Shown: positions 57,869 through 60,002 of the stretch, one piece after another
Numbering within the stretch: position 1 is the first letter of the stretch
Layout of the letters: each line of letters opens with the position of its first letter
From: Limnohabitans sp. G3-2
GTDB lineage: Bacteria; Pseudomonadota; Gammaproteobacteria; Burkholderiales; Burkholderiaceae_C
Assembly (NCBI RefSeq): GCF_002778275.1
Contig: NZ_NESG01000005.1
Location: forward strand, 248,001 to 312,000
Length of the DNA: 64,000 nt
Direction of reading: 5' to 3'
The notes under the pieces: model-generated
Databases searched by the model: none
Told to the model about the DNA's origin: nothing
What the model saw: only the letters and a program-made list of their open reading frames with translations
Position numbers and translations under genes: made by a program

Positions 57869-58324
57869 ATGCCACTGCAACATCTCCAACTGTCCCTGCA
57901 ATTTGGTGACATTCCCAACGCGGCGCGCCACCGCGCGGCCCTGCCCCGGCACGCGGTCACCCGCGCCATTCGCCATGCCTTGGCTGACGACGCCGAGATG
58001 ACAGTGCGCATCGTTGGCGAGCAAGAAGGCCGCGCGCTGAACCAGAGTTACCGAAAAAAAGATTACGCCACGAATGTGCTGACGTTTGACTATGCGCAAG
58101 CGCCTGTGGTGCTGGCCGATTTGGTGCTGTGCGCTCCGGTGGTGGCGCGTGAGGCCAAGGCGCAAGGCAAGACGCTGGCCTCGCATTACGCGCATTTGCT
58201 GGTGCACGGAACTTTGCACGCGCAAGGCTGGGACCATGAGACCAGCGAGGCCGATGCCCAGGAGATGGAGGCCTATGAGGTGGCCATTTTGGCGGGATTG
58301 GGGTTGAAAAATCCCTATCGATAA
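57869..58324 (+). CDS. ybeY: rRNA maturation endoribonuclease YbeY
   Basis: The 151-residue metalloprotein has the zinc motif 'HLLVHGTLHAQGWDHETSEA' (H-x3-H-x5-H) near residue 117 and 'NQSYRKKDYATNVLTFDYA', the family's conserved middle. It takes part in 16S rRNA 3'-end maturation and ribosome quality control. It is co-directional with the PhoH gene 18 bases upstream. A large hairpin starts eight bases after its stop. Confidence 0.95.
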   Translation: MPLQHLQLSLQFGDIPNAARHRAALPRHAVTRAIRHALADDAEMTVRIVGEQEGRALNQSYRKKDYATNVLTFDYAQAPVVLADLVLCAPVVAREAKAQGKTLASHYAHLLVHGTLHAQGWDHETSEADAQEMEAYEVAILAGLGLKNPYR

Positions 58325-58331
58325 TGAGTGA

Positions 58332-58409
58332 GGTTTCGGTTTGGGTAGGGCCGGGTTCCTCATGACGGGGTACCGAAAATCGTCACCCGGCCCTACCCAA
58401 ACCGAAACC
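58332..58409. repeat. Large perfect hairpin 1 with conserved 22-nt loop core
   Basis: The 25-base arms (58332-58356 and 58385-58409) are perfect reverse complements and G-rich on the left strand. The 28-base loop contains the core at 58360-58381, which includes GGTACC. There is no T-run. The core recurs inverted in the loop of hairpin 2. Confidence 0.9.
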
Positions 58410-58460
58410 GTTGTGGGCGTGAAACACTCTTAGGTTTTCCAATGACCACCAAGGGGAATC

Positions 58461-58520
58461 GGGCGATGCGGCGGGCGCCGATTTTCGGTACCCCGTCATG
58501 AGGCGCCCGCCGCATCGCCC
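58461..58520. repeat. Large perfect hairpin 2 with the same loop core, inverted
   Basis: The 19-base arms (58461-58479 and 58502-58520) are perfect reverse complements unrelated to those of hairpin 1. The whole 22-base loop (58480-58501) is the reverse complement of 58360-58381. The two hairpins occupy the gap between convergent ybeY and dbpA. Confidence 0.9.
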
Positions 58521-58543
58521 CATTCACCGCTCTCAAAAAACAA

Positions 58544-59965
58544 TCAGAGCAACCGAACCTTCACGCTCTTGCCCTTGATCTTGCCGTGCGACAGCTGCGC
58601 CTCCACCTTTTTGGCCAGTGCAGCCTGCACCGCCACATAGGTGGAGAACTCGTTCACATTGATCTTGCCAACCTGCTCGCGGGTCAGTCCACATTCGCCC
58701 GCCAAAGCGCCCATCACATCGCCTGCACGGATTTTTTCCTTGCGGCCACCGACGATTTGCAAAGTGCGCATGGGCGGCTGAAGCGGCCCACCCTCGGCAG
58801 GTGTCAACCCCGCCAAAGGCGCCCAGTTGGATTCGCGGCCCTGCATCAGCTCGATCTTGCCGACCGAGCCCATCTCGTCCATGCTGGCCAGTGTGAGCGC
58901 CAAGCCTTCGGCGTCCCCCCGGCCCGTGCGGCCAATGCGGTGAATGTGGATTTCAGGGTCGGGCGTCACGTCCACGTTGATGACCGCCTCCAAACCCTCC
59001 ACGTCCAGCCCACGTGAGGCCACATCGGTGGCCACCAAGACCGAGCAGCTGCGGTTGGCAAACTGCACCAGCACTTGGTCGCGTTCGCGTTGCTCCAATT
59101 CACCAAACAGCGCCAGCGCGCTGTAGCCCTGCGCCTGCAGCACCGCCACCAGATCGCGGCATTGCTGCTTGGTGTTGCAAAAAGCGAGCGTGCGCTCCGG
59201 ACGGAAATGCGCCAACAGTTTCGAGATGGCATCCAGCCGCTGGCTCTCGCTGACCTCGTAAAACACCTGGCGGATTTTGTGCGCGCTGTGCTGCGCCTCG
59301 ACTTTCACGGTCTGCGGCGCGCGCATGAACTGCGCGGCCAGCTTGGCAATGCCCTCGGGGTAAGTGGCGGAGAACAGCAGCGTCTGGCGGTCTTTGGCGC
59401 ACTGGCGCACGACCTTCGCGATGTCGTCAAAAAAGCCCATGTCCAACATGCGGTCGGCTTCGTCCAACACCAGCGTGTTCACGCCCGCCAAACTCAGCGA
59501 GCCCCGCTCCAGGTGGTCCAGGATGCGGCCGGGCGTGCCCACCACCACATCGGCGCCGTGCTCCAAACTCACGGTCTGTCCCCTCAAAGCCACGCCGCCA
59601 CACAAGGTGACCACTTTCACGTTTTGTCGGGCACGCGCGAGGCGTCTGATTTCTTGGGTGACTTGGTCGGCCAACTCGCGGGTGGGGCACAAAATCACCG
59701 CCTGAATGGCGGCGCTGGGCGAACCCGCCGTTTGCAAACGTTCTATCAAGGGCAAACCGAAAGCGGCCGTTTTGCCACTGCCGGTGCTGGCTTGGGCGAT
59801 CAGGTCTTGCCCTGCCAAGGTCAAAGGCAAGCTGGCCGCCTGGATGGGCGTCATCTGGGTGTAGCCCAGTTGTTCGAGGTTTTGAAGGGTGGCAGGTGAC
59901 AGCGCGAGCTGGTCAAAACGAGAGGTCATCGAGGCGGGAGACACAGCGGGGAATTTTTCAGTCAT
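58544..59965 (-). CDS. dbpA: ATP-dependent RNA helicase DbpA
   Basis: The 473-residue DEAD-box helicase has Walker A 'LIAQASTGSGKTAAFGLPLI', 'VVGTPGRILDHL', DEAD in 'TLVLDEADRMLDMGFFDDIA', SAT 'LLFSATYPEG', and 'HIHRIGRTGRGDAEG'. The C-terminal 75 residues form the DbpA RNA-binding domain ('KIRAGDVMGALAGECGLTRE') that recognises hairpin 92 of 23S rRNA. The ATG at 59965 was chosen; one 13 codons later is possible. It acts in 50S assembly. Confidence 0.95.
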   Translation of the reverse strand: MTEKFPAVSPASMTSRFDQLALSPATLQNLEQLGYTQMTPIQAASLPLTLAGQDLIAQASTGSGKTAAFGLPLIERLQTAGSPSAAIQAVILCPTRELADQVTQEIRRLARARQNVKVVTLCGGVALRGQTVSLEHGADVVVGTPGRILDHLERGSLSLAGVNTLVLDEADRMLDMGFFDDIAKVVRQCAKDRQTLLFSATYPEGIAKLAAQFMRAPQTVKVEAQHSAHKIRQVFYEVSESQRLDAISKLLAHFRPERTLAFCNTKQQCRDLVAVLQAQGYSALALFGELEQRERDQVLVQFANRSCSVLVATDVASRGLDVEGLEAVINVDVTPDPEIHIHRIGRTGRGDAEGLALTLASMDEMGSVGKIELMQGRESNWAPLAGLTPAEGGPLQPPMRTLQIVGGRKEKIRAGDVMGALAGECGLTREQVGKINVNEFSTYVAVQAALAKKVEAQLSHGKIKGKSVKVRLL

Positions 59966-60002
59966 GCCCCGATTATCGGCGGGCATCGGCCTCAGCTCAG
60001 AC

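Follow-up and report, generated by a model that had tools for sequence, protein, structure and literature searches.

A probable bi-hairpin DNA element with constant tips and freely varying paired stems between ybeY and dbpA of Limnohabitans

The two hairpins that lie between ybeY and dbpA in Limnohabitans sp. G3-2 are probably (we put the probability at about 0.6) one instance of a dispersed, non-autonomous DNA element of two hairpins that follows a REPIN-like plan and acts as a folded single strand. This strand, called here the E strand, is the one that reads GATTT..ATGA; it is the minus strand at hairpin 1 and the plus strand at hairpin 2. The features of the window, which is the whole 64,000-nucleotide stretch that was analysed, are as follows.

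57869 to 58324, plus strand: ybeY, host gene upstream of the pair and outside the element (TIGR00043, 120 bits, cut-off 45)
58332 to 58409, minus strand: hairpin 1, 78 nt, with arms at 58332-58356 and 58385-58409
58360 to 58381, minus strand: core of hairpin 1, 22 nt, the exact reverse complement of 58480-58501
58410 to 58451, no strand: spacer of 42 nt separating the two 78-nt hairpins
58452 to 58529, plus strand: hairpin 2, measuring 78 nt on the family ruler, its outer part imperfect
58480 to 58501, plus strand: core of hairpin 2, 22 nt
58544 to 59986, minus strand: dbpA, convergent host gene outside the element (NF008744, 708.9 bits, cut-off 524)

The genes ybeY and dbpA converge, and both hairpins are located between their 3' ends. 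The arms of hairpin 1 are complementary at 25 of 25 positions around a loop of 28 nt, while hairpin 2 has 19 perfect base pairs (58461-58479 with 58502-58520) around a loop of 22 nt and is 93% complementary over 27 nt (58453-58479 with 58502-58528). Both were matched by our covariance model, at 58338-58403 (85.6 bits) and 58458-58523 (86.5 bits), respectively. On either strand, each hairpin folded better than all 200 of its dinucleotide shuffles (z from -8.1 to -10.2), which shows that the hairpins are not due to chance. When up to three mismatches were allowed, the 22-nt core occurred three times in the 3.25-Mb genome, twice in the window and once, as a third exact copy, at C21:69107-69128, and the reversed pattern did not occur. 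The positions of the hairpins, their arm lengths and their shared core were thus all as given by an earlier sequence-only reading. That reading also called the two stems unrelated, which needs a correction: the arms have in common a G-rich left arm and the innermost bases, GGGTGAC/GGAACCC or GGGCGCC/GGCGCCC, and the left arms of 12 copies of this genome are 24-84% identical, with a median of 48%.

The covariance model was built from six copies of this genome, which match by construction, and gave 20 matches at 14 distinct places in it, 12 of them with E < 1e-7. These places comprise the window pair, three sites between boxB and boxA, four within uvrA, one each after xseA and sodB and one between two co-oriented reading frames (L079); one further place is the second member of a counted pair, or weak, and the two weakest matches are on C23 and C12. 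Copies with their own arms, for which the sequence-only reading had proposed a search, are present elsewhere in this genome and in its relatives. All 24 genomes of the genus, this one included, had a match to the covariance model at a threshold of 0.01, and so did one genome among 16 from other families (E = 0.006). With stricter filters and a threshold of 1e-4, matches were found in 25 of 150 genomes at the family level and in 2 of 200 at the order level, both of the latter from the same family as Limnohabitans, and no other family had a match at 1e-4 among these 200 genomes of the order. Contigs with the core pattern, among the matches listed (at least 119 stretches), belonged mostly to Limnohabitans, Rhodoferax, Polaromonas, Curvibacter, Comamonadaceae and Burkholderiales. 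For one core pattern, 3 of 80 named contigs among the matches listed bore odd titles; two contigs titled Akkermansia muciniphila (L184 and L197) carry the element, and on L197 this title is probably wrong. The same core pattern was found in no viral contig, plasmids and phages gave no match to the window pair, and carriage by plasmids, phages or viruses was rejected on these grounds.

A regular scan of 295 fetched loci (1.95 Mb) yielded 449 copies, of which 307 were distinct, and none in the reversed sequence; these loci were chosen by their matches and partly overlap, so the copy counts are not genome frequencies. A search of the open-access literature found no description of such a repeat family.

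Each copy has a tip of 22 to 26 nt, CGATTT..GGTACCCC..ATGAG (the GATT start and the ATGA end of the core being required by the scan), on a stem of about 25 bp. The tip is formed by a C-G pair, a tandem G.A/A.G, a 4-bp inner helix and a UACC-type loop. At positions 2-3, 186 of 307 copies had the tandem G.A/A.G and at least 75 had two Watson-Crick pairs, and the inner helix showed paired variation (CTGG/CCAG, GTGG/CCAC, GCGG/CCGC and ACGG/CCGT, with GGCG/CGCC in the 26-nt core type of uvrA). The median identity was 86% between cores (69 cores of 22 nt) and 44% between arms.

The pairing profile was made on 96 copies of the genus, which were left from 106 model matches after nine had been dropped (eight opposite-strand duplicates and one that was cut off), together with the one of the 97 remaining rows that lacked the core pattern. 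The frequency of Watson-Crick pairing was 0.81-0.98 at distances of 4 to 27 nt from the core and 0.78 at 28, then dropped to 0.41 at position 29 and to about 0.2 further out. Pairing thus ends sharply 28 nt from the core, which means that the stem has one length. Its sequence is free yet paired: 20 of 22 pairs were altered on both sides in the model-fitted alignment, and the covariation score was 0.758 as opposed to 0.178 when shuffled (0 of 500) and 0.120 or less when slid, in an alignment that leans to structure and in which 9 of the 106 rows were opposite-strand or cut-off matches.

Some single hairpins have arms that are lengthened, beyond the 25-bp stem, by a conserved palindromic part (AACATTAATTT..), at the following positions.

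L064: 5977-6042 and 11010-11074
L065: 6473-6538
L066: 533-598 and 6863-6928
L067: 5318-5383

The two strands of the stems were compared; a mismatch that reads G.T along one strand reads A.C along its complement. On the E strand, 477 G.T mismatches were counted versus 70 A.C in 313 copies with a scan neutral to both, 169 versus 30 in 101 representatives less than 70% alike, and 112 versus 25 in the model-based set of 96 copies; a scan tilted against G.T still gave 416 versus 55. The effect of host gene direction was examined on copies within uvrA and within 500 nt downstream of boxB. The ratio of G.T to A.C was 42:6 (26 copies) when the host gene is read along the E strand and 65:8 (47 copies) when it is read against it, or 28:5 and 36:7, respectively, when distinct events were counted. 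Since the G.T excess stays on the E strand in either host direction, folding of the host mRNA is not its cause. The tandem G.A pairs exist only on the E strand. With RNA parameters the fold of this strand was the more stable of the two in 91 of 100 representatives; with DNA parameters it was so in 79 of 100 and was the less stable in 20. The asymmetry, read from substitutions, suggests that a single strand of DNA folds and not the mRNA of the host gene. A higher supply of C-to-T mutations on the E strand could give the G.T excess instead of selection, and antisense RNA may also be a source of the asymmetry.

The hairpins are arranged in inverted pairs. Among 109 cases of neighbours less than 300 nt apart, 99 were in the minus-plus arrangement of the window pair, six were plus-plus, four minus-minus and none plus-minus; the spacer of the 99 minus-plus pairs ranged from 27 to 195 nt. 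The two members of a pair have different arms (mean identity 0.46), and the same arm types come back within a lineage, so that the pair is a heterodimer. Comparison of 12 units (from G001, G020 and relatives) in the best-resolved group, about 220 bp in length, showed that similarity ends abruptly on both sides and that the flanks differ. The inverted pair, present at many unrelated sites, is the unit that spreads; hairpins that stand alone occur as well. No target duplication was evident by eye around the 12 units, nor was a clean pair of very close strains before and after an insertion seen, and movement is accordingly something that we infer from flanks and empty sites. Both cores were identical in 27 of the 99 pairs versus an expectation of 0.108 by chance. 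The loops of a pair may pair with each other, as the sequence-only reading suggested; identical cores could also result from common descent or from local gene conversion. In G103 (L125-L132), small hairpins, GGTAGCGC(A/G)CTACC, are located within the spacer of the pair, and what looks like a short inverted repeat, about TACGGGC / GCCCGTA, forms the outer ends.

The history of the window pair was followed in 30 ybeY-dbpA loci from the 40 genomes searched; seven of these loci could not be judged because ybeY fell outside the locus. Both hairpins were present in 10 of the 30, whereas hairpin 2 was kept and hairpin 1 shortened or lost in three (L149, L150 and L162); in L149 and L150, hairpin 1 has lost its tip but retains a short stem with nearly perfect pairing. 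Two loci were fused by deletion (L151 and L161), one had 73 nt without a hairpin (L171), four held about 600 nt of unrelated DNA (L172-L175) and three were empty (L158, L164 and L169), which provides between ybeY and dbpA the element-free sites that the sequence-only reading had proposed to look for. One pair of hairpin 2 was G-C in L146, G.T in L147 and A-T in L149 and L150. Comparison of these orthologous sequences indicates that pairing is kept by compensatory change within the genus.

Two other places, located as follows, show the family in different surroundings.

L083:4300-11300 (G001): serS locus, compared with L090 (G006)
L076:4577-10915, about 344576-350914 of G000:C21, minus strand: uvrA (NCBIfam)

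Downstream of serS, G001 has four closely similar units, separated by three gene blocks, where G006 has one unit. This G006 unit aligns to all four G001 units and its flanks align to the first and the last; G019 and G020 have the same genes in other orders. Hairpin pairs border gained or rearranged gene blocks at this locus. The UvrA of the genome under study is a single reading frame of 2112 aa with five stretches of UvrA match, and four hairpins are located in frame in its linkers, encoding peptides such as SYGGGTPKSSP. In-frame copies in uvrA were also found in three other genera, in linkers between conserved parts (homology by tblastn), and the UvrA of G077 has one linker without a hairpin. 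Other copies are located between co-oriented boxB and boxA. Copies inherited by descent, as in uvrA and between boxB and boxA, may have a host role, which is kept in play because the long upkeep of pairing exceeds the needs of a merely mobile element.

The family was compared with known systems. Integron attC sites and the ends of IS200/IS605 are strand-specific substrates of folded single-stranded DNA, and attC sites keep the foot while the tip is variable. The substrate proposed here would likewise be a folded single strand, with which the evolutionary asymmetry agrees; unlike attC, the family keeps the tip, and among the copies with listed neighbours none had a recombinase gene beside it. 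Rickettsia palindromic elements are palindromic repeats located in frame inside genes, and some of our copies are like them in being in-frame palindromes; the family differs from them in phylum class and size. These elements are named in PMC3733652, a paper that describes CGTC repeats with stems of 8-9 bp and loops of 4-5 nt, GTAG repeats with stems of 5-13 bp, and terminal tags in both. It further describes inverted dimers and heterodimers of CGTC- and GTAG-tagged REPs, some of the dimers within longer palindromes, the absence of an associated transposase for CGTC repeats, and intragenic REPs in uvrA (Thioalkalivibrio and O. terrae) and uvrB (R. conorii), which give the in-frame UvrA copies a precedent. 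Our family resembles the CGTC-tagged REPs in its dimers, its intragenic copies and its lack of an associated transposase, features that are not specific, and differs from CGTC- and GTAG-tagged REPs in its 25-bp stems, its loops of 22 to 28 nt and its lack of such a tag. REPINs, as described in PMC3116915, are inverted doublets that spread as a unit, free of genes and mostly intergenic, with common compensatory change and with one part in which length and pairing outweigh sequence, the ends being conserved while the middle varies. The family shares the inverted doublet as spreading unit, the absence of a gene within it, the mostly intergenic setting, the variable paired part and the compensatory change; however, each hairpin keeps its tip and varies its arms, and there is no GTAG foot, no flanked transposase gene and a stem of 25 bp.

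At the foot of 303 copies, GTAG was found in five (5') and four (3') and GGAG in six and six, with 23, 3 and 4, 2 in control windows, while CGTC was found in 11 and 0 and TGTC in 19 and 0. Neither the GTAG nor the CGTC tag is enriched at the foot, TGTC at the 5' foot (19 of 303) being the largest count; in known repeats the GTAG tag may also read GGAG, and the CGTC tag TGTC or CCTC. Instead of the short conserved palindrome of 20-40 bp that is a feature of REPs, we found 78-nt hairpins with variable 25-bp stems. The genome has a resident transposase of this type.

L103:1171-1866, about 208200-208900 of G000:C21, minus strand: gene of a REP-type tyrosine transposase, adjacent to a gene start and not flanked by hairpins of this family

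Its product scored 79.1 bits on NF047646 (REP-associated), for which the cut-off is 80. Among 15 genomes of the genus, Y1_Tnp matches were found once in 11, two or three times in three and not at all in one. No copy of the family was found in 50 Y1_Tnp loci (161,348 bases with flanks of about 1.5 kb, from element-bearing and element-free genomes), 15 of which were also free of covariance model matches, and Y1_Tnp was as frequent in genomes with the element (11 of 12) as in those that lack it (11 of 12). As a mobiliser, the resident REP-type transposase is therefore a poor candidate, and it was rejected as being neither flanked by copies nor associated with the element in the loci and genomes examined. 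The family has the habits of REPINs and CGTC repeats and lacks the tags, the flanked transposase and the short stem; by the features compared, it works like a REPIN and yet is not one.

The evidence also bears on several other readings. Ordinary REPINs, with the resident REP-associated tyrosine transposase as their mobiliser, would agree with the inverted doublets, the compensation and the intergenic spread, all described for REPINs in PMC3116915, and with the Y1_Tnp genes of 14 of the 15 genomes examined; we consider this reading very unlikely, since the Y1_Tnp loci are free of copies, Y1_Tnp is as frequent without the element and the GTAG foot is rare. Structured RNA, with hairpins that act in transcripts as 3'-end stabilisers or as sites for RNase III or a protein and with selection on the RNA stem, is unlikely. 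Compensatory change through G.U-type intermediates is typical of RNA, the window hairpins sit between convergent 3' ends and RNA parameters favour the E strand; however, the G.T excess is also on the E strand of the 47 antisense copies, where the mRNA would have A.C, copies occur within the uvrA reading frames, and no Rfam family was matched beyond chance (at E <= 1 there were 13 matches, each to a microRNA family and far under its gathering score). The convergent setting would also fit bidirectional intrinsic terminators, strong hairpins being what separates ybeY from dbpA. We regard this as extremely unlikely: each position of the 3' flank from +1 to +9 had T in only 7-18 of 97 representatives, the flank on the opposite strand is not T-rich either, and copies are located within uvrA and between the co-oriented boxB and boxA. 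The sequence-only reading had already set terminators aside in favour of a constant core with variable paired arms, which proved to be a repeated architecture.

Two further readings concern the origin of the arms. Quasipalindrome correction is a known mechanism for imperfect palindromes, and the arms could be alike without selection, through template switching or arm conversion combined with a strand-biased supply of mutations; the 51 of 307 stems that have only Watson-Crick pairs at positions 4-27 agree with it. Such a process would extend arms to any length, whereas pairing ends at one distance, and correction alone yields no excess of G.T over A.C; a single-base path over G.T was also observed. 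We consider this reading quite unlikely. The sequence-only reading had offered a mobile core that makes palindromic arms from its flanks upon insertion, and the greater constancy of the core relative to the arms is in its favour. Copies with very similar arms in different flanks, arms of one length with a sharp 28-nt limit, and orthologous arms that change by compensatory substitution show that the arms belong to the unit, and we give this idea next to no credence.

The bi-hairpin element would, in the mechanism that we propose, act as a folded single E strand, most likely DNA, exposed at replication or transfer. A putative enzyme would sense the length of the stem and the tip of the E hairpin, the 25-bp stem acting as a ruler; the element would serve this enzyme as a copying or insertion site. 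Copies would persist by descent after insertion and may offer homology for the gain of gene blocks. The suggestion of the sequence-only reading that the core is a recognition site presented in cruciform loops comes close to this, with the site at the tip of the hairpin. No mobilising enzyme was found, and in the regions whose genes were listed no two hairpins enclosed a transposase, as those of an autonomous copy would. More tentatively, the family may possibly form a separate class of mobile repeats, in which a folded single DNA strand with a 25-bp ruler stem of free sequence is read at its tip, which consists of inverted heterodimers moved by a putative non-REP enzyme, and which provides docking sites for gene blocks (serS locus) and in-frame linkers in UvrA.

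REP-like repeats usually keep their palindrome, whereas this family keeps the tip and the stem length while the stem sequence drifts. The substitutions in the drifting stems act as a natural experiment from which strand-specific folding can be deduced, and hairpins of the E strand offer a clear bait for the missing enzyme. The family also shows that, in four genera, elements of this kind occur in frame within a gene for DNA repair, and that units border blocks of gained genes.
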